Source: Candidatus Microthrix parvicella Bio17-1
Lineage (GTDB): Bacteria; Actinomycetota; Acidimicrobiia; Acidimicrobiales; Microtrichaceae
DNA length: 64,000 bases
Direction of reading: 5' to 3'
Assembly: GCF_000299415.1 (NCBI RefSeq)
Contig: NZ_AMPG01000002.1
Span: 496,001-560,000 of the forward strand
The notes under the pieces were generated by a model. That model did no database searches and was not told where the DNA came from. It was given only the letters and a program-made list of their open reading frames with translations. A program made the translations under genes and the position numbers. Below, in pieces: positions 34,955 through 61,757 of this stretch (the stretch's first letter is position 1; every line of letters starts with the position of its first letter).

Positions 34955-35335
34955 TCACTGCCATTGGAGGCGCGGAACGTCGCCGTACAGGCGTTCCAGC
35001 CGGTAGTAGCCGCGGTCCTCCTCGACGAAAGCGTGCACGATCACGTCGCCGTAGTCGAGCAACACCCAGCGCAAGGAGTCACGGCCCTCCACCGACTGCG
35101 GGGTTCGTCCGGTTCGCTCCCGCACCACGGCCTCAACCTCGTCGGCGATCGCCTTCACCTGACGCTCGGTTCGACCGCTCACCAACACGAAGACGTCGCA
35201 CATCACCTGTACGCCGGAGACATCCAGCACCTCGATGGCCTCGCCGTCCTTGGCATCGGCCGCAAACGAAGCGGCTCGGGCCAGCGCCACGGTGTCGACA
35301 TCCAGGTTGGTCAGCTCGTCGGTCTCCAAGGTCAC
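34955..35335 (-). CDS. rsfS: Ribosome silencing factor RsfS
   Basis: The 126-residue protein has the RsfS/Iojap core: AKDGEAIEVLDVSGVQVMCD, FVLVSGRTERQVKAIADEVE, and the C-terminal SLRWVLLDYGDVIVHAFVEE followed by RGYYRLERLYGDVPRLQW. RsfS binds ribosomal protein L14 and blocks joining of the subunits during starvation. The GTG start overlaps the stop of the LytR_C protein by 4 bp. The order nadD-LytR/LCP-rsfS is common in actinobacteria. Confidence 0.95.
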   Translation of the reverse strand: MTLETDELTNLDVDTVALARAASFAADAKDGEAIEVLDVSGVQVMCDVFVLVSGRTERQVKAIADEVEAVVRERTGRTPQSVEGRDSLRWVLLDYGDVIVHAFVEEDRGYYRLERLYGDVPRLQWQ

Positions 35336-37402: not shown

Positions 37403-37415
37403 TCTCATCATTGTA

Positions 37416-37435
37416 GAAGTCATCCAAACGACTTC
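37416..37435. promoter_or_regulatory. Inverted repeat between nadD and the sigma factor gene
   Basis: GAAGTC (37416-37421) and GACTTC (37430-37435) form a perfect six-base inverted repeat around ATCCAAAC. It covers the region just upstream of the nadD start and about 80 bp before the sigma gene ATG, so it could be an operator for the divergent pair. A chance match cannot be excluded. Confidence 0.3.
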
Positions 37436-37512
37436 CGCCGCGAATCCTCAAATTTTTTCAGGTCTGTCCGATGGAGCCGCAACAGCAGCGTTACCTGAAA
37501 GGCAAACAACAC

Positions 37513-38346: not shown

Positions 38347-38414
38347 CCCGGGAGGTCGGTAGCCTCGGGTGCCCCCACTCCTGCACGTACCTTGCAGCGA
38401 ACCAGAGGAGCACC

Positions 38415-45579: not shown

Positions 45580-46326
45580 GTGACCCCCCCAGCGAAGGTG
45601 ACGAACCGAGCCCCCTCCGCCAGCACGCTCAGCGTGCTACGACGCTTTTTTGCCGAGCGTGGCGACCCGGAACCGTTCTACGACGACCTTGCCCGGCGGG
45701 CACTCGACAGGTTTCCGGTGCCCGTCGAGGGCCGACGTATCGCCGACGTGGCCTGTGGCACCGGGCAATTCACCGCCGCCCTGACCGAACGCGGCGCGCG
45801 TTGCGTGGCGATCGATCTGGACCGCGCCGACATTGCAGGCGCCCGCGCCCGGGGCCTTGACGCTGTCTGGACCGACGCCCGTTGGCTGCCGCTGGCGGAC
45901 GCCTCGATGGATGGGGTGGTGTGCTCCAATCTGCTGGAACATACCCCCGACCCCGGTTCGGCCCTGGCCGAGATCGCGCGTGTGCTGGCACCTGGCGGCT
46001 GGGCCTGGGTGAGCTGGACCCTGTGGTGGTCACCGTGGGGAGGCCATGCCATCGCACCGTTCCACCTTTTGGGCCCCCGGATCGGAGCGCGGGTTCGGCA
46101 TCGCCTGCTCGGTCCGCCCACCGGCAAGAACCTTCCGTTCGAACGCCTCTGGCCCACTCATGCAGGGTCGATCCTGCGAATCGTCGACGAGCTCGATCAG
46201 CTGCAGCTCGACGACTGCTACCCCCGCTACTGGCCCTCGCAACGATGGTTGATGCGAGTGCCGGTGCTGCGCGAGGTTGCCGGCTGGAATGCAGTGCTGG
46301 TGTTGCGCCGCACGGCCGACGAGTGA
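45580..46326 (+). CDS. Class I SAM-dependent methyltransferase
   Basis: The 248-residue protein has motif I VACGTGQFTAALTERGA near residue 58, the acidic ribose ligand AIDLDRADIAGAR, and motif II/III LPLADASMDGVVCSNLLEHT with LAPGGWAWVSW. It belongs with Methyltransf_11 enzymes. The TGA overlaps the AftD gene ATG, and the short 49-bp gap to the divergent membrane protein leaves little room for two promoters. Substrate may be a glycan, lipid carrier or quinone; context favours an envelope glycoconjugate. Confidence 0.85.
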   Translation: MTPPAKVTNRAPSASTLSVLRRFFAERGDPEPFYDDLARRALDRFPVPVEGRRIADVACGTGQFTAALTERGARCVAIDLDRADIAGARARGLDAVWTDARWLPLADASMDGVVCSNLLEHTPDPGSALAEIARVLAPGGWAWVSWTLWWSPWGGHAIAPFHLLGPRIGARVRHRLLGPPTGKNLPFERLWPTHAGSILRIVDELDQLQLDDCYPRYWPSQRWLMRVPVLREVAGWNAVLVLRRTADE

Positions 46327-49300
46327 TGCTCCGAGCGATCAACAAACCCGACAGCCCGCTCCGCCGGGCGGCCGCCGCGATGCCGCTGTTGGCGTGGGTG
46401 GCACTCGGCACGTTCGTGCTGGCCCTGGCGGCTGCCGCTGCCAGCTCAACCGGCCGGTACGTCGCCGATGCCCGCTTCGAGATCTACTGGGGCACGGGGC
46501 GTTACCTGCGCAGCCAGCTGTCGTTGTGGGACGGCGTCCGCAATCTGGGCCGCCCCAACCCGTACTTCAGCCCGGTGGTCGGCGTGTTCGTCGGGGCGCT
46601 CCGCTTGATCGGCCTCTCGCCCGCGTGGGCCGAACGGGTGCTGCACGCTGCCATGATCTCGCTGGGGGCCACCGGGGCGGCGGCGGTGATGGCCCAGCGT
46701 CGGCCAAAGGACCGCACGGCCGTCGTGCTCACCGCGTTGGTGTTCGGCTTCAACCCCATCGTCGCCGAGTTCCTGGTGCCCTCAGGCATCTTCTTCCACT
46801 ACGCACTCGCACCTTGGCTGGTCTGGTGCGTGCAGGGTGCCGTGGCCGCTCCGGGCCGCACGGCACCATGGAAATGGCCGGCCCGCACCGCGTTGGTGAT
46901 CTTCGCCATGGGCGCCATCAACTCGGCCAGCCTGCTCTACGCATTCGGTCCCGCCGTGGTCGTGGCGGCGGGCCTGGTGTTGGTCGAGGCTCGCGGCCGA
47001 CCGGATCGCCATGCCCGACTTCGGTCGCTTTGGGGGTACGCGTGGCGGGCCGCCGTGCTCGGTCTGGCCAGCGCCGCCGCCGCCCTCGTCGTGTTGGCGG
47101 TGAACGGTCCGGTGGTGCAGGCCAACCTGAGCGTCACCGAACTGCCCCAGACGGTGAGCGCACACAGCAGCTGGGCAGAATCGCTGCGGGGCCTGGGCTA
47201 TTGGCTGACGTACTTCGGTGGCGGAGGCACCACCCGCCCCCACCCGTCACCGTTCGTCATCAACCAGTTCGCAGCCGCGCTGAGCCTGCTCCTCCCACTC
47301 GTGGCGCTGATCACGCTGGTGCGGACCAAGTGGCGCCCCGCCCGCACCTTCGGTTGGTTGTTGGTCCTCGCCATGGTGGCCATGGTTGGGCTGTACCCGG
47401 TCGACGGTGACTACCCGGTCGGCAAGGCGATGTCGTGGCTGTTCGACAACGTCGCCACCACCCGGTCGCTGCGCAACGGCTACAAGGCCGGCGCAGGTTG
47501 GGCGTTGGCCATTGCCGTGTTGGTGGGCATCGGCGTTTCCGATGCCGGCTCATCGTGGCTGAGGCGACGCGCCGGACGCCCCGGCGCCGCGCGGCGCTCC
47601 GACAACGCGCGCTTCAACGCCCGCCACCTCCTGAGCGCTGGTGCCGCCGCAATCGTTTTGGTGGCCGCCGTGCCCTTCTGGAGCGCCAACCTGTATCCAG
47701 AGGCCGAGACCACCGCCGGAGTTCCCCAGTATTGGAAGACCGCCGCCGCCTACCTGAACGACCTGCCGAACGACGGTCGGGTGCTGATCCTCCCCGGGGC
47801 CAACCGCACGCGGTACCGCTGGGGCTATATCGGGGATGACCTCTTCGATGCGTTGCTGTCCCAACCCCACGTCTCCCGTTCAACGCTTCCCCAGGGCACC
47901 CCTCAGGCCGCCGACCTGCTCGATGCCCTCGATCGCTACGTCACCGGACCCACCTTCGAACCAGGGGTGATTGGGCCGATCCTTGCCCGAATGGGCATCA
48001 AGTGGGTGGTCTTGCGCAACGATCTCAACTGGGAGGTGATGGGTGCACCCCGCCCCATCAGCTTCAACGGCCTGCGCGGAGACCCCGACCTGAAGCGCAT
48101 CGCCACCTTCGGGGCGCCCGGCGTCTTCGTCGCCGCCCCCGACAGAAGCCCCGATGCCGAACCCTCCGAGGAGGAACAACAGGGACTGAGCCCGGTCGAG
48201 GTGTTCGAAGTGGCCGATTCGCCGGGAATGGCCCGGGTGGACCCACGTCCGCCATTGCTGGTGGCCGGATCGGGTCCTGCCTGGCCCGGCATGGCCACCG
48301 CCGGCTACCTGGACGCTGACGGCCCGGTCCGATATTTGCCGACCATGTCATCGGCCACAACCGAGCGACTGTTGGACCAAGGCTCGTCCCTGGTGATCAC
48401 CGACAGCAACCGTCGCCGAGTGCAGCGAGGAACCGCGGAACAGAACTTTCTCTCCCCCGTGCTGCCCGAGGGCGAGGACGGCGACGATCGCCCGGCGCGA
48501 CCGCTCTTTGATGGACCCGGCCGTCAAACGGTGGCCGACTATGGCGACGCCTCCTCGATCACCGCCACCGCCTACGGCGCCCCCAACCAGACCTTTCCGC
48601 CGTCGAACCGCCCATCGAACGCCACCGATGAAAACCCTCGGACCGCCTGGGCACTCTCCGGGCTTCGAGACCCCCGGGGGGAATCCCTCACCATCAACCT
48701 GCGGCGCCCGACCGTGGTGGATCGCGCCTCGATCAGCCAGCTTCGCAACCCGGCCGACACCCCCTCGATCGCACGCATGACCGTGACCGACGATCAGGGG
48801 CGCTCGGTGGCCTACAACCTGGGTACCGGCACCACCAGCATCAACCTGCCACCACGAGAGGTTCGCTCGTTGAACTTCAGGATCGACGCTGTCAACACCC
48901 AGAGTGCCGTTGGGGTCGGTCTCACCGAGGTGGCGCTGTTCGATTCCAACTCGATGCGGCTGGACCTGGCCGAACGCCTGGTGATGCCAACGGTTCCCGA
49001 CCTCGACGGCGCCGGAGACGCTGCCAGGTACCTCATGGAGCGCTCAATGATGGGCGCACCGCTGGTCGAGGAGCCCAGCCTGCGTCGACGCTTTGAAACG
49101 GTGGGTGCCGCCCGCAACTACCGCGCCCGTGTTTGGGCCGGCGCCGGCGTTGACACCCCGGACGTGGTGTTGGACAACCTCGACAACCATGAGGTGGGCG
49201 CGTACGGCTCGTCACGGTTCCAGGACCGGCTGCGAGCAAGCGGTTCCGGCGCCGTCGACGCCGTCGGTGACGACCTCGGCCAGTCCTGGGAGGCATCGCC

Positions 49301-50264
49301 CGTAAGCGGCGAGACACTGACCCTCAGGCTCCCAGAGACCTCGGTGACCAGCCTCTCGATGATCACCCCTGGAGCGGACGACCTGAGGTCGTCCAAGATC
49401 GACACCCTGACGGTGTCGGGTTTCCTGAACGATGACGCGGTGTACACCAACGTGGAGGTCACACCCGAAAAGCGCTGTGCCCCCGAGCTGTCCGAACGCG
49501 CCGACCGCTGTCTGGCTCGGACCGAGATCGAGCTTCCCCCGGCGTCGGTGGACCGGGTGGTGATCCGCGTCGGAGCCGTCTCCCCGGTCGCCGACGCGTC
49601 GGGGCCGCTCCCCATCAGCATCACCGAGCTCGGCGTCAACGGTCGCATCGGATTCGACAAGACGGCCCAGCGCCGCAGCCCCGAGGACTGCATCAACGTG
49701 CTCACGGTGGATGACACCAAAGTGGGAGTTCGGCTGACGGCCACGAAGGCCCAACTCCTTGCCGGAACCACCGAACTGGAGGTGTGCGACAAGGTCGGGC
49801 TTCGGCCCGGAAACCACGAGCTGCAGACCACCTTGGGAGGCGACGGGCTGATCAATCGAGTCTCATTGGTGCCTCAGGACCTGAAGGAGCCAACCCCGCC
49901 CGCCGACTCCCCCGACGGCGGTAAGGATCCACTCGGCACCGCCACACTGACCAATCTGAATCGCACCTCCCTCAGCGCCGATCTGAAGGTCACGGGGCCC
50001 ACCCAGGTGATCATCGGCGAGGCAGCAGGCGCGGGCTGGTCGGCCAGCTTCGATGGCGAGAGCGCGAAGCGGTCGGTGGCCCTCGACACGATGGCCGGAT
50101 GGCCCATCGATCAACCGGCCGACATGATGGTTGCGGTCTATACCCCTCAGCGCACGTACACGATCGCGCTCGGCATCAGCCTGCTGTCGGTCACGCTGGC
50201 AACAATCCTTGCGTTTCGAGGCGACCGTCGCCGCACACGACGTCAATCCCAGGTCCAAGCGTGA
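46326..50264 (+). CDS. AftD-like alpha-(1->3)-arabinofuranosyltransferase (DUF3367) with discoidin-like domain
   Basis: 1312 residues. The N-terminal ~560 are a GT-C membrane unit: YVADARFEIYWGTGRYLRSQ in the first loop and FVLNP-like segments such as GFNPIVAEFLVPSGIFFHYA. The long extracytoplasmic part includes a discoidin/F5-8-like carbohydrate-binding module at about 740-880 (PSNRPSNATDENPRTAWAL, ESLTINLRRPTVVDRASIS) and a second galactose-binding-like fold at about 950-1110. A last helix (YTIALGISLLSVTLATILAF) and basic tail close it. Mycobacterial AftD adds arabinofuranose branches to arabinogalactan and lipoarabinomannan. ATG 46326 overlaps the methyltransferase TGA, and the stop overlaps the flippase GTG (GTGA). 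Confidence 0.8.
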   Translation: MLRAINKPDSPLRRAAAAMPLLAWVALGTFVLALAAAAASSTGRYVADARFEIYWGTGRYLRSQLSLWDGVRNLGRPNPYFSPVVGVFVGALRLIGLSPAWAERVLHAAMISLGATGAAAVMAQRRPKDRTAVVLTALVFGFNPIVAEFLVPSGIFFHYALAPWLVWCVQGAVAAPGRTAPWKWPARTALVIFAMGAINSASLLYAFGPAVVVAAGLVLVEARGRPDRHARLRSLWGYAWRAAVLGLASAAAALVVLAVNGPVVQANLSVTELPQTVSAHSSWAESLRGLGYWLTYFGGGGTTRPHPSPFVINQFAAALSLLLPLVALITLVRTKWRPARTFGWLLVLAMVAMVGLYPVDGDYPVGKAMSWLFDNVATTRSLRNGYKAGAGWALAIAVLVGIGVSDAGSSWLRRRAGRPGAARRSDNARFNARHLLSAGAAAIVLVAAVPFWSANLYPEAETTAGVPQYWKTAAAYLNDLPNDGRVLILPGANRTRYRWGYIGDDLFDALLSQPHVSRSTLPQGTPQAADLLDALDRYVTGPTFEPGVIGPILARMGIKWVVLRNDLNWEVMGAPRPISFNGLRGDPDLKRIATFGAPGVFVAAPDRSPDAEPSEEEQQGLSPVEVFEVADSPGMARVDPRPPLLVAGSGPAWPGMATAGYLDADGPVRYLPTMSSATTERLLDQGSSLVITDSNRRRVQRGTAEQNFLSPVLPEGEDGDDRPARPLFDGPGRQTVADYGDASSITATAYGAPNQTFPPSNRPSNATDENPRTAWALSGLRDPRGESLTINLRRPTVVDRASISQLRNPADTPSIARMTVTDDQGRSVAYNLGTGTTSINLPPREVRSLNFRIDAVNTQSAVGVGLTEVALFDSNSMRLDLAERLVMPTVPDLDGAGDAARYLMERSMMGAPLVEEPSLRRRFETVGAARNYRARVWAGAGVDTPDVVLDNLDNHEVGAYGSSRFQDRLRASGSGAVDAVGDDLGQSWEASPVSGETLTLRLPETSVTSLSMITPGADDLRSSKIDTLTVSGFLNDDAVYTNVEVTPEKRCAPELSERADRCLARTEIELPPASVDRVVIRVGAVSPVADASGPLPISITELGVNGRIGFDKTAQRRSPEDCINVLTVDDTKVGVRLTATKAQLLAGTTELEVCDKVGLRPGNHELQTTLGGDGLINRVSLVPQDLKEPTPPADSPDGGKDPLGTATLTNLNRTSLSADLKVTGPTQVIIGEAAGAGWSASFDGESAKRSVALDTMAGWPIDQPADMMVAVYTPQRTYTIALGISLLSVTLATILAFRGDRRRTRRQSQVQA

Positions 50265-52057
50265 CACCGGCGAAGGAGCTTCGACCGGTGGCGACCGCAC
50301 TGCGGGTGCTGGCGGCAACCGGCGGAGGTTGGCTGATCGGCGGTCAACTCGGGGCCCTCTTCGGCTTCCTCGGTGCCGTCGTGGCCTCGCTGTCGCCCAG
50401 CCTGGCCGGCGCCTACGTCGTGGCCGCCGCGGTGCTCACCGGGGCGGCCACGCTGTTCGAGGCTCGGTTTGGTGGGCTGTTTGCGTCGGCGCGGTTCGTA
50501 CGCGAACGCCCGTTGGCGGGTGACATCGGCCGACTCACCGGCGTGTTGCTGCTGGCATGGCTGATCGCCGCTCGGCCGCGCGAACGGACGAGCATTGACG
50601 GCGAAGACGCAAGTGCAGACGACGACGAGAACGACGGCGCGGCAACGGCCGGCCGAATCGGCGACGATTCCGGTCCCGAGAATACCGGTCCCGAGGATGC
50701 CGGTGCCTTGGCCACCGCACGGACCGGCATCCGACGTCTGAGGGGGCGCACCGACGACACCTCAGGTCAAGGGCATCTCGTTTCCGGTTCGGCCTGGGTG
50801 ATGATGGGTTTTTTGGCCCAGGCGGTCACGGGTGTGGGCTTCTGGGTGTTGGCCGCCCGGGTGTACAGCCAGGTCGACGTTGGGGTGGCGTCGGGCCTGT
50901 TCACCTCGCTTCAATTCATCAACTACGCCACCGCGTTGGGGCTGCAGGAGTTGCTGAGCCGCTACCGACCCGAAACCCGGGGCGACCCGCTGCTGGGGTG
51001 GTCCACCCTGGCCACCATGGCCAGTTCCTTGGCCGGCACCGCCATCTACCTCGGGCTGGTGGGCCGGGGTGGCGGCAACTCGGCGCTGTCGGCGCTGACC
51101 GGCGCCGGAGCGCCCGCAATTCTCGGGTTCGTGGGTGTGGCGGCGGCCAACGCGATCGCAGCCCTCGCAGACGCACGAATGATGTGGGCCAGAAAGTGGA
51201 GTTGGGTGTTTTGGCGCCTGGCCCTTGCGGGTGCGGTCCGTCTTCCGTTGGTGCTGCTTCCGGCCGCCGCCACCGCCGAGACCACGGACGGCTCGGTGGG
51301 CGTCTGGCTGTTCTTCGTGATGGCGGCACCCATCGCACTCTCCGGCTTGGTCTCGCTGTACCTGTTGCGCCGCGCAGGCAACCCGCCCCTGTCCTTGGAC
51401 CGACCCGAGACCGGATGGAACGGCCCTCTTCGATACGCCGGGGTCAACTACCTGTCTCACCTGGCGATCCTGGCTCCACAGTTCATCCTGCCCGTGATCG
51501 TCTTCGTCAACGTTCGGGCCGTCACGTACGCCAACTTCTTTTTGGCGTGGTCCATCGCGGCGGTGGCATTCATCCTGCCAGTGACCATCGGACGGGTTTT
51601 TCTGGTCGAGGGAAGCCGCACGACCGCCGCTGCGGGTGCCACCCGACAGGCCGCCGTGTTGGCGGTCGGCTCCATGCTCGTGGCCACGGTGGGGGCAGGC
51701 GCGTTGGCCCTGCTGCTGCCGGCCATCTATGGGGCCGACTACACCGAGGCGGGCCGGATCCTTCCGTGGCTCGTGGCCGGGGGGATCCCCTGGTCGGTCA
51801 CCTCGATAGCGCTGGCGAGGGCCAGGGTGCACGCCGACTCGCTATCGATCGTGGTCATGACCGCCTTTGCAGCGGTGTCCGTGCTGGGCCTGGCCATGTG
51901 GCTGGTTCCGCAACGAGACCTGGACGGTGCCATCGCCGCGTGGGGTTTGGGCAATGCCGTAGCCTCGGCCGTCGCCGTCGTGTTGGTATCGATCCGCAAC
52001 GATGACGGCAACGCCGCTCCGGTCTCCTATGTGGCCGCCAACCCCGAGCCCCGTTGA
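50261..52057 (+). CDS. MOP-superfamily polysaccharide flippase (Wzx/MurJ-like)
   Basis: 598 residues starting at GTG 50261, overlapping the AftD stop. Two N-terminal helices (ATGGGWLIGGQLGALFGFLG and next) and a charged acidic linker (DGEDASADDDENDGAATAGR) precede a 12-helix export domain: VSGSAWVMMGFLAQAVTGVG, FTSLQFINYATALGLQELLS, YAGVNYLSHLAILAPQFILP. This is the polysaccharide biosynthesis protein pattern that moves lipid-linked glycans across the membrane. The extra N-terminal two-helix domain is not standard for Wzx. It is convergent with the sulfotransferase gene (31-bp overlap). Confidence 0.82.
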   Translation: MTPAKELRPVATALRVLAATGGGWLIGGQLGALFGFLGAVVASLSPSLAGAYVVAAAVLTGAATLFEARFGGLFASARFVRERPLAGDIGRLTGVLLLAWLIAARPRERTSIDGEDASADDDENDGAATAGRIGDDSGPENTGPEDAGALATARTGIRRLRGRTDDTSGQGHLVSGSAWVMMGFLAQAVTGVGFWVLAARVYSQVDVGVASGLFTSLQFINYATALGLQELLSRYRPETRGDPLLGWSTLATMASSLAGTAIYLGLVGRGGGNSALSALTGAGAPAILGFVGVAAANAIAALADARMMWARKWSWVFWRLALAGAVRLPLVLLPAAATAETTDGSVGVWLFFVMAAPIALSGLVSLYLLRRAGNPPLSLDRPETGWNGPLRYAGVNYLSHLAILAPQFILPVIVFVNVRAVTYANFFLAWSIAAVAFILPVTIGRVFLVEGSRTTAAAGATRQAAVLAVGSMLVATVGAGALALLLPAIYGADYTEAGRILPWLVAGGIPWSVTSIALARARVHADSLSIVVMTAFAAVSVLGLAMWLVPQRDLDGAIAAWGLGNAVASAVAVVLVSIRNDDGNAAPVSYVAANPEPR

Positions 52058-53013
52058 GTGTCAGACCGGCTGGAGTACCCGTAACGGCGGCCCACGGGAC
52101 CGGCGAGCAACCTGGTCCAGGTCCGCATCGACCTCGGCGCGTTGCGCTCCCATTCGTCATCGTTACGCAAGGTGACCGGCCCGGTGGCGAAGCGGTTTGG
52201 GTTGCCCCAGGCGGCGTGTCCGGGTGCGCTTCGCTTTCGGTCGGCCGCTTGCCGGCCGAGGGCCACCTCAGGGTCGATGACCAGCCCGGCGAACCGACCG
52301 ATACGCCTCAGGGTGTCATCAGGGCTTGCCACCAGGTCCTCGTAGCGCACGCGCAGATACCGGTCTCCGCCACCCCACAGCGCGTCAGCGGCCAAGTTGG
52401 ACACGTCGTAGTAGATCGAGGCGGAGATCGGGCCTCGACGCTCCATCTCGTGCCCGACGCCAAATCCCAGTTCCGTGCGGCGCCTTGCCCAGGAATACGC
52501 AGTGGCCTGTGGATTCCTCACCAGGTGCAGGAACCGGACGTCAAGCTCGGCCCGGGCGGCAAGGATCGACGAATAGTGGGGTTCCTTCGACGAGTCGACG
52601 ATCAGTTCCGCACCGGTGTGTTCAAGAAGGTTGCGATACAACGACGCCAGCCGTGACGGATACGGACCCAGCCGGCTGGTCAGCGCCTGCTTCGCTCCCG
52701 GCAGGCCCATCACCGGCAGGTACCGGCTGTCGAATCGGCGTCGAAGCGCAAACATCTCGTCGGCGACCTCAGCCATCGCGTCCGGGTTGCCGAAGTCCTC
52801 AGGAAACGTCGCCAGCAACACCGGGCCCCACACCCGGCAGTCCACGTGGCGCGCTCCGCAGGCGCACCGACCACCGGAACGGAGCGCAAACCACAGCCAG
52901 GTGAGCTCCCCGGCAGCGAACACCCCGGGCACGTTGCCCAACATGCGGTCGAGCACCGTGGACCCGGTGCGGCCCGTCCCACCCACATACAGGATGGGTA
53001 CGGCGGCTGTCAT
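52027..53013 (-). CDS. PAPS-dependent sulfotransferase
   Basis: 328 residues. The 5'-phosphosulfate-binding loop is GTGRTGSTVLDRML near residue 11, and the 3'-phosphate motif is FLHLVRNPQATAYSWARRR near 163. The middle helix LIVDSSKEPHYSSILAARAE fits bacterial carbohydrate sulfotransferases (Sulfotransfer_3). It should move sulfate from PAPS to a sugar or lipid. It ends the nine-gene glycan unit; its ATG overlaps the preceding stop by 4 bp. Three Cys in GRCACGARHVDCRVW are unusual for the family and may bind metal. Confidence 0.88.
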   Translation of the reverse strand: MTAAVPILYVGGTGRTGSTVLDRMLGNVPGVFAAGELTWLWFALRSGGRCACGARHVDCRVWGPVLLATFPEDFGNPDAMAEVADEMFALRRRFDSRYLPVMGLPGAKQALTSRLGPYPSRLASLYRNLLEHTGAELIVDSSKEPHYSSILAARAELDVRFLHLVRNPQATAYSWARRRTELGFGVGHEMERRGPISASIYYDVSNLAADALWGGGDRYLRVRYEDLVASPDDTLRRIGRFAGLVIDPEVALGRQAADRKRSAPGHAAWGNPNRFATGPVTLRNDDEWERNAPRSMRTWTRLLAGPVGRRYGYSSRSDTQRGSGLAAT

Positions 53014-54002
53014 TGCCCGCCGGCAGGCTCCACCGCGCCCGGCGTGGGGGCTCCCGACTGGCTCGTCGCAGGGCCGGCCGGGCCGTCAGCGGCCGGCTCC
53101 GACGGGGCGGGGCCACCCGATGTGGTGTCCGGCTGGTCACTTTCCTTGGCCCCACCGTCGCTGACGGTCGTCGAAGTGGCAGCGCCAAGGCCACCCAACG
53201 CGCCGATCTTTTCGGTGCTTAGTGGGACCGCAACCACGTTGTCGATCGAGGTGCTCGTGCCTTTGGCACCACCCCGCACCAGCAATCCAACCCGGGTTCC
53301 ATCCGTCAGTTCGGGAACGACCTGACGCCCAGACTCGGCCCCGTTGACGTAGACGATCACGTTCTTCCCCTCGGTTCGCACGCCAAGGGTGACCTCACCT
53401 TCGGGCAGCGCCGAACCGATTTGGGAGGGTTGGGCCTGGGTCCCGTCCACGGTGACCCCCAACTGCACGGTTCCCGTCACCGGGGCGAAGGTGACTCCGA
53501 TGAAGTTGTTGGGCCCCTGAAAGCGGGTCACGAGGCCGGTGCCGGCCTTGGGATCAAAAAACGTCGCCTGAACAAACTGGTCACCCACGCCGGTGTCGAG
53601 CACCGCCAACGCGCTGCCCCCTCCACCCGCAGGACCCGGCAAGGGTTTGGCCTCAACCCGCCCATCACTCACCGACCACTCGCCGCCAACAATCTGCCAG
53701 GGCCGACCGGTTTCGGTGGTCTCCAACGGTGAGCCGTCCGCCCGATTGAACGAGTCAAAGCTCATGCCGCGAAGGCGTCCCGCCACCTCCGGTTCGGGAG
53801 CCTGCAACATCGACCGGGTCAACAACACCGCCACCACGGCGGTGATGGCAATCAGCGCTACAGCACCACCGATCAGCTGAAAGAGCCGGGAACGGTCCGG
53901 CGCCTGCAGGTCCGGCTCACCACCCAGCTCATCGGGCTCATCGGGCTCATCTTGCCCGCCGGCCAAACCGGATGATCCTTCGGTCTCCTCCGCCGCGACC
54001 AT
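53010..54002 (-). CDS. Single-pass membrane protein with LamG-like extracytoplasmic domain (paralogue 1)
   Basis: 330 residues from ATG 54002, which shares one base with the methyltransferase stop. An acidic cytoplasmic N-terminus (GGQDEPDEPDELGGEPDLQA) and one helix (LIGGAVALIAITAVVAVLLT) lead to a concanavalin/LamG-like beta domain (FDSFNRADGSPLETTETGRP, VQATFFDPKAGTGLVTRFQG, VIVYVNGAESGRQVVPELTD) and a Pro/Ser/Gly tail. Layout and domain match the 386-residue protein at 56154-57314. Such folds often bind glycans. The tail has no sorting signal. Function is unknown; the operon suggests a glycan-handling scaffold. Confidence 0.78.
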   Translation of the reverse strand: MVAAEETEGSSGLAGGQDEPDEPDELGGEPDLQAPDRSRLFQLIGGAVALIAITAVVAVLLTRSMLQAPEPEVAGRLRGMSFDSFNRADGSPLETTETGRPWQIVGGEWSVSDGRVEAKPLPGPAGGGGSALAVLDTGVGDQFVQATFFDPKAGTGLVTRFQGPNNFIGVTFAPVTGTVQLGVTVDGTQAQPSQIGSALPEGEVTLGVRTEGKNVIVYVNGAESGRQVVPELTDGTRVGLLVRGGAKGTSTSIDNVVAVPLSTEKIGALGGLGAATSTTVSDGGAKESDQPDTTSGGPAPSEPAADGPAGPATSQSGAPTPGAVEPAGGQ

Positions 54003-54814
54003 CAGTATGGCCACTCTCCGGACGGGTTGCCGATCAACCGGGTGAGCGCACCCAACTTCAGCGTGATCAGCACCTTCACCAGTTGGCACCAGGCAAAGTA
54101 CGGCAACTGCCCAACCTGCCGTCCCAGGTTGGTGATTCGTCGCAGCGGTCCCAGGCGTTCACGCCGGTACTCGGCCATCGACTCGGATCGGCCCACGTAG
54201 CGAAATTCACCCGAGGTAAACAACACCGCCGCCTGGGCCAAGGTGACCCCAAGCGCGTTGAAGCTGTCGTGGATCAACATGGTGCCGCCGGGCACGACCC
54301 GCGCCCCCCAGGCCACGATGTCGTCGCGTGCGGGAGCAAACCGGTGGGCGCCGTCGATGTAGAGCAGGTCGATCGGGCCCTCCACCTCGTCGAGCGCCGC
54401 ATCGGAGAACTCCCGAACGTGACGCACGCGCTCCGCAACGCCCGCCGCCGCCAGATTGGAGTTGAAGATCTGGTGGTCGGACTCGGCCTCGTTGGCGAAT
54501 CCCTCGATCTCGTTTGGGCCGCGGTCATTTCCCGCATGCGGATCAATGGCCACCACCTCGGCGCCCTTCGGGGCACCGGAGGCCAGCACGATCGTGGAGC
54601 GGCCCTGAAAGGAACCGATCTCCACGATTCGCTGGCCCGGGTCCAACACCCGGGATGAGCGCCACAGCAGTCGGGCCTGACCCGGGGTCATCCATCCCTT
54701 CACTCCGGCGACGGCGTCGGTCACCTCAACGAAGCGGCCAGGCGGCGAGGCATCGGGCCGTTGGACTCCGGGGGTTGATTCGATCGCTGGGTCCTGCGCA
54801 GATGCAGAGGCCAT
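54002..54814 (-). CDS. Class I SAM-dependent methyltransferase (Methyltransf_24/cephalosporin-hydroxylase-like)
   Basis: 270 residues from ATG 54814, with GAGG eight bases upstream (a longer start at 54874 is possible). Motif I is RIVEIGSFQGRSTIVLASGA, followed by VVAIDPHAGNDRGPNE, and motif III region IDLLYIDGAHRFAPARDDIV with GGTMLIHDSFNALGVTLAQA. The YIDGAH..... pattern is typical of Methyltransf_24. It probably methylates a sugar or lipid-linked intermediate of this cluster. It overlaps the next gene by one base. Confidence 0.85.
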   Translation of the reverse strand: MASASAQDPAIESTPGVQRPDASPPGRFVEVTDAVAGVKGWMTPGQARLLWRSSRVLDPGQRIVEIGSFQGRSTIVLASGAPKGAEVVAIDPHAGNDRGPNEIEGFANEAESDHQIFNSNLAAAGVAERVRHVREFSDAALDEVEGPIDLLYIDGAHRFAPARDDIVAWGARVVPGGTMLIHDSFNALGVTLAQAAVLFTSGEFRYVGRSESMAEYRRERLGPLRRITNLGRQVGQLPYFAWCQLVKVLITLKLGALTRLIGNPSGEWPY

Positions 54815-54876
54815 GTGGGGTTCCTCGTTGACGGTGGGAGCGTGTACAACCGACGGGCTGATCGGGCTCGGCAATC

Positions 54877-56157
54877 TTAGGTCGCGTCGGCCTCGGCGCC
54901 GCGCTTGGAGGCTGCGCTTTTGGCCGCCGACCGTCGAGCTTCGCTACGACGGCGACGACGGCTGGGGCTGAGATCCATCGCCGGACGCTCAACGCCCCAG
55001 TACGTGATCGTGGCCACCACCACCGAAGCGACAAACACGAACAGCAGCTGCCACCAGCGACCCTTCGGCACCTGGCCCTCGAGACCCATTCGGAAAAACA
55101 GCTTCACGAAACCCGGATGCCACAGATAGAGGCCGTAGGAGATTGCGCCAAGCGACGCAAACACCCAGGAACGCATCACCCAGCGGATGGCACCCTTGGA
55201 CTGATCACCCAAGGTCAGCGGGAGCAGCAACAGCCCGGCACCGGCGCCATGCGCCACATGCCTGGCCAAGGATTGCCCCATGGTCGGGAAGTAGATGAAG
55301 TAGTAGCGCAGCTGAACAGCGGCCCAAATCACCCCGACCGCCGAACCCCAACAAAACCAGGGCCGATCGGACATCCACCGGATCCAACCGGGAAGCGCAA
55401 GGCCCCGGACCTGTGCTGCGGCCAGCGCCGAAAAGAACATTCCTACGGCAAACCAGTCCAGCATCGATGGCATCCACACCAGCGATGGATGGGTGGTGTC
55501 GCGGATCGTCATGATCAACACCTTGATGGCGATCGAGAACACCACTTGCGCGCCCAAGGCCAGGTAAATACCGACCATGCGGTCCTGAACCGACGTTCCG
55601 AACGCTCGGCTCACACGCCGATAGGCCATCGCCAACAGAGGCAAAATCAGGTAGAAGGCCAGCTCAACCCCCAACGTCCAGGCAGCAAAGATGGCCCAGA
55701 ACTCGCCTCCAAACACGTAAATCTGCCCAAACCCGAACAGTGCCACCCAACCGACAGCGTTGGTCGGCAGGTCAACGTCTGGAAAGACGGTGATGTAAAA
55801 GAACAGCGCCACCCAGTACAGCGGCACCAGCCGCAGCAGGCGGCCGGTGGCATAGTCGCGCAGGTTGGGAAACGGCGTGCCATCCAGAATCCCCTCCACG
55901 AATGGACGGAACAGCAGAAATCCCGACAGCGCGAAGAACGTGCCGACGGACATGTGTCCGATGTGTTGCACCAGTTGATCGCTCGCGCCCAGCGAGGTAC
56001 GAAACACCCCCAACGTGTGCGTGCACATCACCAGGAACGCAGACAGAAACCGCAGGCCGTTCAGACACGGGTAGTACGTGCGGCTGACCTTGGGCACCTG
56101 CCGGCGACCATCGCCCGACTGAGGGGCGACGGCGGCGCGGTCCAGCGTGGAGGTCAT
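54877..56157 (-). CDS. Acyltransferase family 3 (OafA-like) membrane protein
   Basis: The 426-residue protein has about ten helices, with the family start YYPCLNGLRFLSAFLVMCTH (catalytic H within RF-S-x-x-V-x-C-x-H), then GFLLFRPFVEGILDG, LRLVPLYWVALFFY and the late GLYLWHPGFVKLFF. OafA-type enzymes O-acetylate or acylate extracellular glycans. The C-terminal tail is very basic (SPSRRRRRSEARRSAAKSAA). The start overlaps the upstream stop (ATGA). Confidence 0.9.
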   Translation of the reverse strand: MTSTLDRAAVAPQSGDGRRQVPKVSRTYYPCLNGLRFLSAFLVMCTHTLGVFRTSLGASDQLVQHIGHMSVGTFFALSGFLLFRPFVEGILDGTPFPNLRDYATGRLLRLVPLYWVALFFYITVFPDVDLPTNAVGWVALFGFGQIYVFGGEFWAIFAAWTLGVELAFYLILPLLAMAYRRVSRAFGTSVQDRMVGIYLALGAQVVFSIAIKVLIMTIRDTTHPSLVWMPSMLDWFAVGMFFSALAAAQVRGLALPGWIRWMSDRPWFCWGSAVGVIWAAVQLRYYFIYFPTMGQSLARHVAHGAGAGLLLLPLTLGDQSKGAIRWVMRSWVFASLGAISYGLYLWHPGFVKLFFRMGLEGQVPKGRWWQLLFVFVASVVVATITYWGVERPAMDLSPSRRRRRSEARRSAAKSAASKRGAEADAT

Positions 56158-57314
56158 CCCCCCTGACCCCCGGCCCCTTCACCGTTTGGCGGGGTGGATG
56201 CGGGAGCACCGCCACCATCGGCTGCCGGACCGGGGATGCTGACCTGCGTGGTCGCCCCGCCCGATGTCGCCGGCGTACCGCCCGATGTCGGCGGCGTACC
56301 GCCGGTGGGTGCGGGGACCGGCGCTGTTGTCACCCCGCCGGCCGGTGGCGTCGCCACGGTTGGGGTTGTCGCTGCGCCGGCCGGCGCCTCGGGGTTGACC
56401 GATTCCGGTTGCAGCTGGCGAACGGTCGGCTCGGCAAACAGCGCGAAGTCATCAAACTGTGCACCTCTCGCCTTGCGGTCCACTCCGACCAGGCCTGCTG
56501 ATTGGTTTGCATCGGCGAACGTGTCATCACGAACCCGCGTGGAGATTGAGCCATCCACCCAGATGCTGAACCCGTCATCCTCGAAACGAACCGTCACGAG
56601 CGTGGCCCCAAACACGTTCAACGAGTTCTTCTGTGTGTGGCCCACCTCCTCCACCTTGCCGTTGACCACCCGCAGAATGCGCAGCCACTGCCTGCTGTCC
56701 ACCGGGTCTGCGACGACCGCCCAGTAGTCGTCCACCGAAGCGATTCTAAAGGCCACCCCAGCGTTCGTCATCGGTCTGCTCAGCCGGGCCTGCACCGCCG
56801 AGATCGGCGAGGCCCATCCCATGGCCACCAGTGCCGGGGAGTCCTTGTCGACATCGATGATCGCCCCCTGCCCGCCGTTGATGCCCCAGATGCCGCCGTA
56901 GACCGACCATCGCGTCGAGTCGTAAAATGGATTGATCGAGCTCTTGGAGTCGACGATGACGCCCAGTTCGTCGCTGAAAATACCCCGGTCGAAGCTGTCC
57001 ATGCGCACCGGGATCTCCATGCCATCGATCACCTCCGGAGGCACGACGTAGGTGTTGATCAGCACCGCCGCCGCTCCAAGCACCATCGCCACACCCACCA
57101 CGATCAGGAACTGGCGATTGACGAAGGGCAGACGGTCCGACGCCAGCAGGTCTCGTACCCGCTGTCCTCGCGTCCGGTCATCTGTCGCGTCATCGGTCGC
57201 GTCATCGGTCGCGTCGCCGGGCACATCGTCCGGGGCGTCGCCGGGCACATCGTCCGGGGCGTCAGCACCGTCGACGGGTGGGGGGTTCAACTCGTTCTGT
57301 TCGTCGATACTCAT
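56154..57314 (-). CDS. Single-pass membrane protein with LamG-like extracytoplasmic domain (paralogue 2)
   Basis: 386 residues. The acidic cytoplasmic N-terminus is made of repeats (PDDVPGDA, TDDA). One helix (FLIVVGVAMVLGAAAVLINT) leads to a LamG-like domain (WSVYGGIWGINGGQGAIIDV, GVAFRIASVDDYWAVVADPV, VTVRFEDDGFSIWVDGSIST), then a Pro/Thr/Gly tail with TPPTSGG repeats. It parallels the protein at 53010-54002 in every part. Both junctions are ATGA overlaps. The pair in one operon suggests a hetero-complex on the outer membrane face, but no function can be assigned. Confidence 0.8.
   Translation of the reverse strand: MSIDEQNELNPPPVDGADAPDDVPGDAPDDVPGDATDDATDDATDDRTRGQRVRDLLASDRLPFVNRQFLIVVGVAMVLGAAAVLINTYVVPPEVIDGMEIPVRMDSFDRGIFSDELGVIVDSKSSINPFYDSTRWSVYGGIWGINGGQGAIIDVDKDSPALVAMGWASPISAVQARLSRPMTNAGVAFRIASVDDYWAVVADPVDSRQWLRILRVVNGKVEEVGHTQKNSLNVFGATLVTVRFEDDGFSIWVDGSISTRVRDDTFADANQSAGLVGVDRKARGAQFDDFALFAEPTVRQLQPESVNPEAPAGAATTPTVATPPAGGVTTAPVPAPTGGTPPTSGGTPATSGGATTQVSIPGPAADGGGAPASTPPNGEGAGGQGG
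56258..56306. repeat. 21-bp coding repeats (TPPTSGG tail)
   Basis: Two copies of about 21 bp (plus-strand cccgatgtcgccggcgtaccg with one change) encode TPATSGG/TPPTSGG in the tail of the 386-residue membrane protein. Confidence 0.6.
57178..57262. repeat. 12-bp and 24-bp coding repeats (acidic cytoplasmic tail)
   Basis: Three copies of a 12-bp unit (gtcgcgtcatcg) encode DDAT, next to two copies of a 24-bp unit (ccgggcacatcgtccggggcgtcg) encoding DAPDDVPG, in the N-terminus of the 386-residue membrane protein. Confidence 0.7.
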
Positions 57315-58468
57315 CGCTGCCGTCGCGTCGTTGGATTGGCCGAGATGCTACGCCCCCGGTCGGCGTTGGAAAGAACGGCGGCAGCGAGAACGGCCTCGTA
57401 GTCCGCAACTGACCGTTCCCAGGTGAACGTGGCCGCCCGTGCCCGTGCCGATTTGCTCAACCGTGCCCGTTCGGCCGGTTGAGCGGCCAACGATGCCAGC
57501 GCCCCACGGAGCGCGTCAGGGTCACGTCGGGGCACCACCCGCCCGGTGTCCCCCACCACGTCACCCAACCCCGGCAGGTCGGAACACACCGGGATCAGAC
57601 CGGCAGACATGCCTTCGAGAAGCACCATGCCAAAGGCCTCCAGTTCGTTGATCGATGGCAACACGATGACGTCGTGGCTGCGGTAGGCGGCCAACAATTC
57701 GTCGTGGTCGACGCGCCCGACAAAGCGGGCGTTGGTCAGGCCCCTGCGTCGCGCCAACTCGCGGTACTGCTGCTCATCCAGTCCGCCACCCACCAGGGTG
57801 GCCTCCACCCCGGGGAGCCCGTCGAGAGCCTCCAGCAGCACCGGGACTCCCTTGTAGGGCCGCATCTGACCCACGAACAGCACTCGCAACGGGCCGTTTG
57901 ACCGCGCGGTCACATCCTCCGGTGTGTCCGCGCCCGCCGGTGCCACGGCATCGACCCCCCACGGAATGACGTGAGCTCCCGGTACCCCCGCCGCCGCAAG
58001 CAGGTCCCGATAGGACGGCGACGTGACCACGACCTCGTCCGCCACGCGGGCCAGGCGCTCCTGTGCGGTGTTCACGCCCAGTTGGGCCCGATACATCGCG
58101 CCGCGACCACGTCCGGCGGCCTCCACCATCACTTGAAAATGATGGGTGTACACCACCGCCGGTCGGCGCCGCGCCAACGCGGTTCGCGCCAGAAACAACT
58201 CCGAGCAGAACGGCGATGGCCCGTGCAGGCCCACCACGTCGTAGCCCTCGGTGAAGCGGGCAAAGCGGGCGAAGCGTCGAGCAATAAAGTGCATTCGGTA
58301 CTCGCCGTAGGTCAACCCTCGATCGGCCAGGGCCGAAACCGCGTCCACTCGATGACCTCGCTCGATCAAGCCGCGACGAAGCCGATCAACCGACCGTGAC
58401 ACGCCGGAGGTCACCGGGGGAAGTTGCGATGCCACCAACAGCACCGACATTGGCTTGGATTCGGTCAT
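57311..58468 (-). CDS. Glycosyltransferase family 4 (GT-B)
   Basis: The 385-residue protein has the N-terminal GT-B loop VASQLPPVTSGVSRSVDRLR, the middle PLRVLFVGQMRPYKGVPVLLE and the nucleotide-sugar site VIVLPSINELEAFGMVLLEG, with the E-x7-E pattern of GT4. It retains configuration and probably adds a hexose or mannose to a lipid-linked intermediate on the cytoplasmic side. The start overlaps the GT2 stop and the stop overlaps the next ATG, both ATGA. Confidence 0.92.
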   Translation of the reverse strand: MTESKPMSVLLVASQLPPVTSGVSRSVDRLRRGLIERGHRVDAVSALADRGLTYGEYRMHFIARRFARFARFTEGYDVVGLHGPSPFCSELFLARTALARRRPAVVYTHHFQVMVEAAGRGRGAMYRAQLGVNTAQERLARVADEVVVTSPSYRDLLAAAGVPGAHVIPWGVDAVAPAGADTPEDVTARSNGPLRVLFVGQMRPYKGVPVLLEALDGLPGVEATLVGGGLDEQQYRELARRRGLTNARFVGRVDHDELLAAYRSHDVIVLPSINELEAFGMVLLEGMSAGLIPVCSDLPGLGDVVGDTGRVVPRRDPDALRGALASLAAQPAERARLSKSARARAATFTWERSVADYEAVLAAAVLSNADRGRSISANPTTRRQR

Positions 58469-59307
58469 GGCGCAGCCGGGTCGAGGATCTCCAGGCCGTC
58501 GGTGCGTGGCTGCGCCGGCTCAGGGCCCCATCCAACCCTGGTGCTCCACCACAGGCGCACCAGGTGCTTCACCATGTTCCAACCTTCCACCAGGGTGCTC
58601 TTGGTCTGACCATCGGTGCGGGTCTCGAAGCGATAGGGCACGTCCACCAACACCTCCCATTTCCCCCGAACCAGGATCTCCACCAGCATTTTGTAGCCCT
58701 CAGGCGCCAGGGTGGCGTTGGCCAGCACCTCGGGGCGAATGGCAAAAAGCCCACCCCCAGGGTCCGAGGAACGCCGAGTCTCCCGAAACATGAACTGCAC
58801 CAGCCACCGCGAGCCCACCGATGCCCAGTGCCGCCAGCGGTACTCAAGGCCTTCCGCAGAGCCTCCCGCCGCATAGCGGCTACCCACCGTCACCTGCGCA
58901 GGGCCGTCCAACAGCGGCGCCACCATCGACTCGGCGACCTCGGGCGGATGCTGCAGATCTCCATCCATCACGATCACGGCACGACCTCTCGCTTGGGCCA
59001 TGCCCAGTGTCAGCGCACCGGCGAGGCCTCCGTCGCGCCGCCCCACAGGCCGGTGGATCATGCGCACCGGCTCGCCCGCCGCGGCCGCCCGACGAACCAC
59101 CTGCGGCGTCTCATCGTCGGAGTCGTCGACGAACAACACCTCGTAGCTGCGTCCGGTCTCGCCGAAGTGGGTCGACAACCGGCCCAACAACCGCTCGACG
59201 TTGTCGCCCTCGTTGCGCGTCGGCACCAGCACGGTCACCGCGACTCCCCGCAGACGTTCCGCCGCGGCCATGGCGTTGGTCTGCCCCTCGGCCGCATCGT
59301 TACTCAC
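58465..59307 (-). CDS. Glycosyltransferase family 2 (dolichol-phosphate mannosyltransferase-like)
   Basis: 280 residues from GTG 59307, overlapping the VWA gene stop (GTGA); ATG 59271 is the alternative. The GT-A fold shows VTVLVPTRNEGDNVERLLGR, VLFVDDSDDETPQVVRRAA and the metal-binding DGDLQHPPEVAESM near residue 115. The end lacks membrane helices, as in DPM1-type enzymes that make polyprenyl-phosphate mannose or glucose for GT-C enzymes. That donor could feed the GT-C proteins elsewhere in the window. Confidence 0.9.
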   Translation of the reverse strand: MSNDAAEGQTNAMAAAERLRGVAVTVLVPTRNEGDNVERLLGRLSTHFGETGRSYEVLFVDDSDDETPQVVRRAAAAGEPVRMIHRPVGRRDGGLAGALTLGMAQARGRAVIVMDGDLQHPPEVAESMVAPLLDGPAQVTVGSRYAAGGSAEGLEYRWRHWASVGSRWLVQFMFRETRRSSDPGGGLFAIRPEVLANATLAPEGYKMLVEILVRGKWEVLVDVPYRFETRTDGQTKSTLVEGWNMVKHLVRLWWSTRVGWGPEPAQPRTDGLEILDPAAP

Positions 59308-60800
59308 GCGAGGTTGTCGACGAAGGTCTCGAGCTGGCGAAGGTTGCGGCACTCGAAGGCACCATCGGTGTACACCGCGTAATCGGACACGATCGAATCG
59401 CCGGTGTCCCAGTAGCTCTTTGGTTCGGGGTTCAGCCAGTAGGTGTGGCGGGCCCGGTGCGCTATCTCCTTCACCACCCAACTCTGGCTGGCGTGGTAGT
59501 TGTTGCGAGCGTCGCCCAGGATGATCACAGTGCTCTTCGGGCTGATCTCGCGCCCGGCCTTCTCCCAGAAGGCCTCGAATGCATGGCCGTAGTCGCTGTG
59601 ACCGTCCACCCACACCACGTCGGCCTCCGTGTTCACCCGGTGGATCGCCTCCATGATGTCGTCGGTGCCCTCAAACATGTGGGTCACCTCGTCGATGCCA
59701 TCGATGAACACGAAGCTTCGCACCCGACTGAACTGGCCCGAAAGCGCATACACGAGGTGCAGCGTGAACCGGGCGAAGGCAGCCACCGAGCCGGAGATGT
59801 CGGCGATGACAAAGATCTCGGGCTTGTGGGGCCTCGGGGGTCGAAACTGTGGGTCGGCGGGCACCCCGCCTGTGCTGAGGGAGTGGCGAACCGTCGAACG
59901 AAAATCCAACGGACCCCTGCGGCCGCGACGACGCTTGCGGGCCAGACGCACCGCCAACTTGCGGGTGAGCGGCTGGATCGCCTGACGAAGCACCTTCAGC
60001 TCGTCGCGACTGGCATGCATGAAATCGATGTCTTCTGGAAGCGGCTTGCGCAGGGTGCGCGACATGGCCTCCACACCGCGGTCCGCCACCAGGCCACGAC
60101 GGATCTCGGCCTCGATCTCAGACTTGAGCTGGTTGATGCGGTGTTCGTACTCGTCGGCCTCGAGCCGCGCATCAAGGGAGTTTTGGTCCTCCGGGGCCGC
60201 GTCCTTGGCCGCCTCCAGCAACTTTGCCAGCACTCCATCGAGGTCGAGCTGTCGCAGCGTTCGATAGAGGTAGTAGGTGCCGCCGACCGGCCGGCCCGGC
60301 TCCATGCCGGCGTAGCGACGCACCGCTTGGCGGGCCACCGCCCGCATTTGTGCATCGTTGCCCTTCAACAGCGACTGGTACAACGCCTCGGCCAGTTCCT
60401 CCGAGGTCATCGCCTCGCCGCCCGCACCACCCGCGCCGGTTGCGCCCTCACCGGGCGGCAGGTCCATCTGGTCCTCGAGCTCGGCCAGCGCGGCCGCAGC
60501 ATCCTCGTCCAGCACGTGGGCCGACCCGCGGTGGCTGAAATACACCTCAAAGACGGTCTCGAACACACGCCAATGGCTGTGGTTTTTCACCAGGGTGGCG
60601 GCCAGCGCGTACTTGAATGCGTCCCTGTCCTCCAGCGGGATGTGCCCAACCGCCTCCATGGCGTCCAGGTTCTCGGTCAGGCTCACCGGCAGACCGGCCT
60701 CCCTGAGCGCGAGAATGAAGCCCCCCAGCAGCTCCAGGAAGGGCTCGCCGGTCACTGCGAGGGTTGCGAGGGTGCCACCGCCGGCGGTCTCAGGGAGCAC
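59304..60800 (-). CDS. CoxE-like VWA-domain protein
   Basis: The 498-residue protein begins FILALREAGLPVSLTENLDA, typical of CoxE/VWA partners of MoxR ATPases. A helical middle (to ~330) is followed by a C-terminal VWA domain with MIDAS DISGSVAAFARF, TEADVVWVDGHSDYGHAFEA and STVIILGDARNNYH. MoxR-VWA pairs act as chaperones that insert metals or assemble complexes. The GTG start lies 3 bp after the MoxR stop, and the stop overlaps GT2. Being translationally joined to sugar-transfer genes is unusual. Confidence 0.88.
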   Translation of the reverse strand: MLPETAGGGTLATLAVTGEPFLELLGGFILALREAGLPVSLTENLDAMEAVGHIPLEDRDAFKYALAATLVKNHSHWRVFETVFEVYFSHRGSAHVLDEDAAAALAELEDQMDLPPGEGATGAGGAGGEAMTSEELAEALYQSLLKGNDAQMRAVARQAVRRYAGMEPGRPVGGTYYLYRTLRQLDLDGVLAKLLEAAKDAAPEDQNSLDARLEADEYEHRINQLKSEIEAEIRRGLVADRGVEAMSRTLRKPLPEDIDFMHASRDELKVLRQAIQPLTRKLAVRLARKRRRGRRGPLDFRSTVRHSLSTGGVPADPQFRPPRPHKPEIFVIADISGSVAAFARFTLHLVYALSGQFSRVRSFVFIDGIDEVTHMFEGTDDIMEAIHRVNTEADVVWVDGHSDYGHAFEAFWEKAGREISPKSTVIILGDARNNYHASQSWVVKEIAHRARHTYWLNPEPKSYWDTGDSIVSDYAVYTDGAFECRNLRQLETFVDNLA

Positions 60801-60803
60801 CCA

Positions 60804-61757
60804 TCAACCCAGCATCGATTTCGCAGCGGACTGGCCGCCATCCTTGACAAACTCCCGGGTGGCCTTGGCGATGTCCGACTGGTACTTCAAGAGGATGTTG
60901 GCCGTGTCGGTGGCCACCTGGGCATCCACCTTCTCCACGCCCAGCAGCATGAGGGTGCGGGCCCAGTCGAGCGTCTCGGAAACCGACGGCGACTTCTTGA
61001 GTTCGAGCTGGCGGATCGACCGCACGATTCGGGCCACCTGATCGGCCAGGGCCTCGGTGATGCCCGGCACCTTGGTGAGCACGATCTCGCGCTCCCGCTC
61101 CATGTCCGGGTAGTCGATGTACAGGTACAGGCAACGCCGCTTGAGCGCCTCGGACAGTTCCCTGGTTGCGTTCGAGGTCAGGAACACCAGCGGGATCTGG
61201 CGGGCGGTGATCGTACCCAGCTCGGGAATGGACACCTGGTAATCGCTGAGCAGCTCCAACAGCAGCGCCTCGGTTTCCACCTCCACCCGGTCGACCTCAT
61301 CGATCAGGAGAACCACCGGGTCCTCGGCCCTGATCGCCTCGAGAAGCGGGCGAGTCAGGAGGAAGTCCTCGGAGAAGATGTCCTCCTCAAGCTCACCCCA
61401 GCCGGCGCCACCCTCGCTGTTGCCCTCAATGCCTGCCGCCTGGATCCGCAGCAACTGCTTCTTGTAATTCCACTCGTACAGCGCCTTGGCTTCATCCAGG
61501 CCCTCGTAACACTGCAGGCGAATCAGTCGGCTGTTGGTGATCTCGGCCACCGACTTGGCGAGTTGGGTCTTGCCGGTGCCCGCAGGGCCCTCGACCAGAA
61601 TCGGCTTACCCAGCCGATCGGCGAGGTAGACGATTCCTGCGATCCCCTCGTCGGAGAGGTACTCCACCTCACCGAGACGGGCTCGCACGTCGTCGACCGC
61701 ATCGAAGCGGGGCTCGGTCTCGGGAAGTCCGTCGGTGCGTGCGCTGGCCGTGCTCAT
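60804..61757 (-). CDS. MoxR-family AAA+ ATPase
   Basis: 317 residues. Walker A VEGPAGTGKTQLAKSV near residue 57, Walker B VVLLIDEVDRVEVETEALLL, sensor 1 LVFLTSNATRELSEALKRRC with the arginine finger, and the MoxR lid (LELKKSPSVSETLDWARTLM). It works with the VWA partner encoded next. It is the first gene of the nine-gene unit. The 101-bp gap upstream separates it from the divergent DoxX-like gene. Confidence 0.92.
   Translation of the reverse strand: MSTASARTDGLPETEPRFDAVDDVRARLGEVEYLSDEGIAGIVYLADRLGKPILVEGPAGTGKTQLAKSVAEITNSRLIRLQCYEGLDEAKALYEWNYKKQLLRIQAAGIEGNSEGGAGWGELEEDIFSEDFLLTRPLLEAIRAEDPVVLLIDEVDRVEVETEALLLELLSDYQVSIPELGTITARQIPLVFLTSNATRELSEALKRRCLYLYIDYPDMEREREIVLTKVPGITEALADQVARIVRSIRQLELKKSPSVSETLDWARTLMLLGVEKVDAQVATDTANILLKYQSDIAKATREFVKDGGQSAAKSMLG

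Follow-up and report, generated by a model that had tools for sequence, protein, structure and literature searches.

A putative sulfated-glycan island abuts a conserved MoxR-VWA gene pair in Candidatus Microthrix parvicella

The stretch of DNA analysed here, 64,000 nucleotides from Candidatus Microthrix parvicella Bio17-1 of the order Acidimicrobiales (contig NZ_AMPG01000002.1, positions 496,001 to 560,000; hereafter the window), carries at 52027-61757 nine genes on the minus strand, beginning with a MoxR-type ATPase and a VWA protein and ending with a sulfotransferase. In their order on that strand they are:

60804..61757, minus strand: MoxR-like AAA+ ATPase (AAA_5, 47.8 bits), read below as a bystander core gene
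59304..60800, minus strand: CoxE-type VWA protein (PF05762, 161.9 bits) with a metal-ion-dependent adhesion site (MIDAS), DISGS; likewise read as a bystander core gene
58465..59307, minus strand: family 2 glycosyltransferase (GT2), polyprenyl-phosphate-sugar-synthase-like (PF00535, 93 bits); first gene of the glycan island described below
57311..58468, minus strand: family 4 glycosyltransferase (GT4; PF00534, 107 bits)
56154..57314, minus strand: LamA, the first LamG-like protein (predicted model, CBM66-like sandwich)
54877..56157, minus strand: acyltransferase-3 (AT3), an integral membrane O-acyltransferase (PF01757, 84.9 bits)
54002..54874, minus strand: Methyltransf_24 methyltransferase (PF13578, 76 bits), start uncertain
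53010..54002, minus strand: LamB, the second LamG-like protein (predicted model, CBM66-like sandwich at residues 76-263)
52027..53013, minus strand: sulfotransferase of the type using 3'-phosphoadenosine 5'-phosphosulfate (PAPS; Sulfotransfer_3, 63.9 bits against a cut-off of 27)

A first-pass annotation had described nine codirectional genes of these families joined almost continuously by overlaps of 1-4 bp, and that description stands, save that MoxR and VWA are separated by a gap of 3 bp. Most junctions are 4-bp overlaps (GT2/GT4, GT4/LamA, LamA/AT3 and LamB/sulfotransferase), while the methyltransferase and LamB genes share 1 bp within TGATG. How VWA and GT2 join depends on the GT2 start, which homologous GT2 proteins leave undecided: the GTG at 59307 gives a 4-bp GTGA overlap, the ATG at 59271 a gap of ~32 bp.

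A MoxR-clade AAA+ ATPase with Walker A and B motifs adjoining a VWA_CoxE protein with a MIDAS places the pair among the MoxR-VWA (CoxD/CoxE-type) systems, which are understood as a chaperone and co-chaperone of CoxD-CoxE ancestry (PMC7159879); both the Walker motifs and the MIDAS residues are invariant across the order. Unlike CoxD-CoxE, the window pair is fixed by proA and nadD, with no CO dehydrogenase or other metal-enzyme client either beside it in the window or among the conserved neighbours in relatives, and it reaches the NCBIfam families MadB and MadC only below their curated cut-offs (MoxR 314 bits against 475, VWA 150 against 600); these two names could not be traced in the literature. 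The VWA profile matched no solved structure, and PADLOC had no match for VWA; for MoxR it gave nothing beyond weak, generic AAA matches. Nor was any conserved neighbour seen that would supply the third component of a MoxR-vWA ternary conflict system (VMAP, iSTAND, FtsH or beta-propeller), some of these components having been searched for by profile.

The pair keeps a stable genomic address of long standing. Of 148 genomes sampled from across the order, 142 encode the VWA protein (114 of the 115 near-complete ones), and its clustered neighbours follow a stable order: rne-rplU-rpmA-obg-proB, pspA, murJ, a CbxX-like AAA gene, proA, MoxR, VWA, in many cases cysH-sir, then the synthase for 3-deoxy-D-arabino-heptulosonate 7-phosphate (DAHP), a sigma factor, nadD, LCP, rsfS and leuS (rne, rplU, rpmA, obg, proB, nadD, rsfS, leuS and LCP being named by sequence inspection). 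The same order appears in 80 named records, mostly Acidimicrobiales or unplaced actinobacterial metagenome-assembled genomes (MAGs), and it is kept in part in other orders: among 20 genomes from across the phylum, nadD and/or rsfS lies downstream in 10 and proA upstream in 6. Mycobacterium tuberculosis presumably shares it too, with proA, Rv2426c, Rv2425c and nadD in succession. Within this conserved set the VWA of the window does not stand out, ranking 23rd of 38 orthologues by mean identity.

The first-pass annotation had the pair locked to sugar-transfer genes, a claim the survey contradicts: none of the genes from GT2 to the sulfotransferase (GT2, GT4, LamA, AT3, methyltransferase, LamB, sulfotransferase) lies near VWA at any of 40 loci (regions up to 20 kb), no island gene lies near it at any of 132 other MoxR-VWA loci, and the pair sits elsewhere with proA, cysH/sir, DAHP synthase, the sigma factor, nadD and rsfS. 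Gene-order conservation, a test set beforehand, gave the same answer, the nine-gene order being unique to the window genome among those examined. Because the order is confined to one genome and MoxR-VWA elsewhere accompanies unrelated genes, the idea of a MoxR-VWA-headed unit fails. We read it instead as an old actinobacterial core chaperone pair that consists of an AAA+ motor and a MIDAS adaptor, has a fixed place between proA and nadD, and probably serves a client not specific to the island.

Several further features of this neighbourhood deserve mention. Many relatives (for example at loci L093, L097 and L163) carry cysH and sulfite reductase between VWA and DAHP synthase, the position held by the island in the window. 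A CbxX/SpoVK-like AAA protein (63089-64000, plus strand) lies divergent from MoxR-VWA and is conserved near the pair in many genomes of the order, and the two AAA proteins may share this core neighbourhood for a reason. At L105, L125 and L133 another codirectional block follows VWA, encoding phosphoglycerate mutase-like, GMC oxidoreductase-like, PimB-like GT4 and ROK kinase-like proteins (names by inspection), in several MAGs, some of them named Ilumatobacteraceae; the GT4 matches there, considered as the same glycan linkage, were rejected as members of this different block.

In relatives with both genes on one locus (n=59), the gap from VWA to DAHP synthase has a median of 2.6 kb and a maximum of 9.5 kb, against 19.5 kb in the window. 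Filling that gap is an island that spans 39.8-59.3 kb and occupies both strands; its remaining genes, and the core genes beyond it, are:

50288..52057, plus strand: polytopic flippase-like protein, Wzx/MurJ-type by sequence inspection only, with no Pfam match
46323..50264, plus strand: AftD-type GT-C arabinofuranosyltransferase, here AftD2 (GT-C_AftD, 221.8 bits against a cut-off of 26)
45580..46326, plus strand: class I methyltransferase (Methyltransf_11, 78.8 bits), overlapping the AftD gene by 4 bp
43611..45482, minus strand: MmpA-like membrane protein (NF053599, 91.6 bits, below the cut-off of 210)
40929..42347, minus strand: sulfatase (PF00884, 150.7 bits)
34955..39809, mixed strands: the second half of the ancestral core block, with orthologues downstream of MoxR-VWA in relatives, in the expected orientation
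38496-39809, plus strand: DAHP synthase, core block
37471-38346, plus strand: sigma factor, core block
36824-37402, minus strand: nadD, core block
35332-36447, minus strand: LCP/LytR_C protein, core block
34955-35335, minus strand: rsfS, core block

The glycan cluster thus runs past 52027, with the flippase-like protein, AftD2 and a methyltransferase on the plus strand and the MmpA-like protein and sulfatase on the minus strand, so that the nine-gene description takes in a single strand of the island and begins with two genes of its flank. We consider it likely that two unrelated things abut at this site: a bystander MoxR-VWA core pair and, between VWA and DAHP synthase, a ~19.5-kb envelope-glycan island. 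The latter is probably an undescribed sulfated, acylated, pentofuranose-containing envelope-glycan cluster. What survives of the sulfated, acylated glycan assembly first proposed is its gene content, with homologous subsets in other families, and what does not is the boundary of the unit. AftD2 gives 72 bits to the solved AftD-type proteins 6w98/6wbx, and a candidate C-terminal carbohydrate-binding module (CBM) in it scores 24.6 bits against the CBM_AftD cut-off of 27. The sulfotransferase matches solved CurM-type sulfotransferases, and its GTGRTGST and LVRNPQA regions, read as the PAPS-binding motifs, are conserved in homologues 45-46% identical to it. Small cell-wall-type proteins (Excalibur, LPXTG-like) are also encoded in the island.

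Sequence searches with LamA and LamB gave almost no homologues directly, and AftD proved the better marker for related clusters. Eleven other genomes of the order encode AftD homologues closer to the window AftD2 than to the family's usual AftD. Around AftD, in shuffled order, we find the flippase-like gene in seven other loci (one beside a more distant AftD), LamG-like genes in five, MmpA-like homologues in five (L085, L272, L275, L276 and L278), similar AT3 genes in four (L085, L271, L274 and L278), Methyltransf_24 homologues of 47-59% identity in three (L272, L276 and L085), and the GT2-GT4 pair in two (L272 and L279, the GT2 proteins being 44-48% identical). Sulfatase homologues (40-41% identical) occur together with the sulfotransferase in L272 and L276. 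Sulfotransferase, methyltransferase and sulfatase are found together in three genomes, those of the window, G538 (L272) and G016 (L276), and it is exactly these three that the AftD tree groups, with support of 0.996. At the same threshold the family's other AftD loci, one of which (L251) lies in the window genome itself, contain no LamG-like gene.

The two LamG-like proteins had been called single-pass on first reading; structure prediction supports one transmembrane helix and a concanavalin-type sandwich in each, while the LamG label finds no Pfam match over cut-off (Laminin_G_3, 13.4 bits against 27.6). In the predicted models LamA has an acidic N-terminal tail, a transmembrane helix at 67-87, a CBM66-like sandwich and a Gly/Pro/Thr-rich tail, and LamB a helix at 38-65 followed by its sandwich, with predicted local distance difference test scores mostly 80-95 across both sandwiches. 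Comparison with CBM66 gave Z 17.0 for LamA (root-mean-square deviation 2.3 over 151) and Z 17.6 for LamB (2.5 over 156), and other high fold matches were to mycobacteriophage fibre and receptor-binding domains and to GH43 C-terminal domains. Foldseek also paired LamB with lectin-fold regions in large toxin complexes, matches set aside as common fold only. LamA, LamB and their homologues align as one family, whose full-length members combine a low-complexity, often acidic N-terminal tail, a transmembrane helix, the sandwich and often a low-complexity tail. Whereas they share the sandwich fold of Bacillus subtilis CBM66 and other concanavalin-type CBMs, LamA and LamB are ~15% identical to these, membrane-anchored by a single helix, paired and located in a synthesis locus; a membrane-anchored glycan-binding role would be the natural reading, for which a shared fold alone is no proof of binding. 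In a family mate, a 604-aa fragment with repeated LamB-type LamG-like segments lies beside glycosyltransferases (L087, G165:C7, 2-1816).

Could MoxR-VWA nonetheless serve the glycan machinery as a dedicated chaperone, with the sulfotransferase, AftD or the LamG-like proteins as clients? Its tight, codirectional junction with GT2 and the lack of a conspicuous terminator between them speak for this, but the pair is order-wide and the island patchy, none of the other MoxR-VWA loci carries island genes, the pair in the window is not unusually diverged, and in other AftD2 genomes MoxR-VWA and AftD2 are on different contigs or, in G002, ~1.5 Mb apart. Adjacency is all that was found to link the pair to the glycan, and we regard such a role as highly improbable. 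Still, several observations count against the reading of a bystander pair beside a glycan island. The neighbour surveys reached only ~8-10 kb past VWA, on its downstream side, in each of the relatives. VWA and GT2 are closely joined (a 4-bp overlap, given the GTG start), with neither promoter nor terminator conspicuous there, so that read-through into a shared transcript and local recruitment might occur in the window genome. G538, of a different family, has a homologous island between sigma factor and nadD, in the same core block as the window, so location may be non-random, and contig breaks there hide the distance from island to MoxR-VWA. The donor and product of AftD and the chemistry of the host glycan are, moreover, predictions from gene families.

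The G538 island also bears on whether the MoxR-VWA-to-nadD core block is a hotspot where glycan islands have repeatedly settled, or an ancestral island site since reshuffled locally, in which case location would matter and MoxR-VWA function would not; this would be compatible with a bystander pair abutting an island. Variable cargo at the spot in many relatives (cysH-sir, paaX and others) points the same way, but only 2 of ~12 islands lie here, a coincidence that we roughly estimate at 1-in-10 by chance in 4-Mb genomes, and evidence from about a dozen islands is suggestive only; we hold the idea possible, if doubtful. Improbable, in our estimation, is that the LamG-like proteins and sulfatase serve uptake or degradation of external sulfated polysaccharides rather than synthesis: a sulfatase together with CBM66-like folds is a typical feature of loci for degradation, but no glycoside hydrolase or lyase was recognized among the island genes, and GT2, GT4, AftD, AT3 and the sulfotransferase indicate synthesis.

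For the abutting island itself, the presence of GT2/GT4, sulfotransferase, methyltransferases, flippase-like protein, AftD-type enzyme and AT3 points to a lipid-linked glycan, exported and decorated, as its likely product, the biochemical steps and the identity of the sugar being inferred from the families encoded. GT2 and GT4 would assemble, in the cytoplasm, a sugar chain linked to polyprenyl; the sulfotransferase, supplied with PAPS (the genome encodes an adenosine 5'-phosphosulfate kinase), and the methyltransferases would decorate it. Export of the chain through the membrane would then fall to the flippase-like protein, the addition of polyprenyl-phosphate-linked pentofuranose outside to the AftD-type GT-C enzyme, and acylation to AT3, while LamA and LamB, as membrane-anchored CBM66-like proteins, might bind the chain and keep it at the outer face and the sulfatase and MmpA-like protein remodel or move it. 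AftD and AftC are arabinofuranosyltransferases of cell-wall arabinan (PMC6034362; PMC2610374). Arabinan assembly in Corynebacteriales shares with the island an AftD-type GT-C enzyme, detectable against the solved structures, whereas AftD2 is of low identity, a paralogue of the genome's other AftD, and linked to a sulfotransferase, a sulfatase and CBM-like proteins. With Wzx-type polysaccharide clusters containing AT3 and GT2/GT4 the island shares the logic of lipid-linked assembly, a flippase-like protein and an acyltransferase, but no Wzy or chain-length protein was recognized in it, and its large transferase is the AftD-type enzyme.

Elsewhere in the window, at 27981-33019 on the minus strand, a 1000-aa protein fuses a major facilitator superfamily domain to two ATP-binding cassette (ABC) ATPase domains, an unusual transporter fusion, beside a branched-chain-type ABC permease.

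A literature search, limited to the papers available, returned no paper tying Acidimicrobia to sulfated polysaccharides and sulfotransferases. We tentatively propose that Acidimicrobiales may produce a so far undescribed class of envelope glycan, one that carries sulfate, methyl and acyl groups, is extended by a distinct AftD-type GT-C enzyme and is kept at the cell surface by the paired single-pass CBM66-like proteins; one clade of the clusters would encode its sulfated form. With a misleading link between MoxR-VWA and sugar transfer removed, the pair gains a firm core address, from proA to nadD, at which its client can be sought, and the island points to a sulfated-glycan system, linked to AftD and open to testing, in a poorly studied actinobacterial order, with its gene set defined and two candidate glycan-binding proteins of the cell surface.

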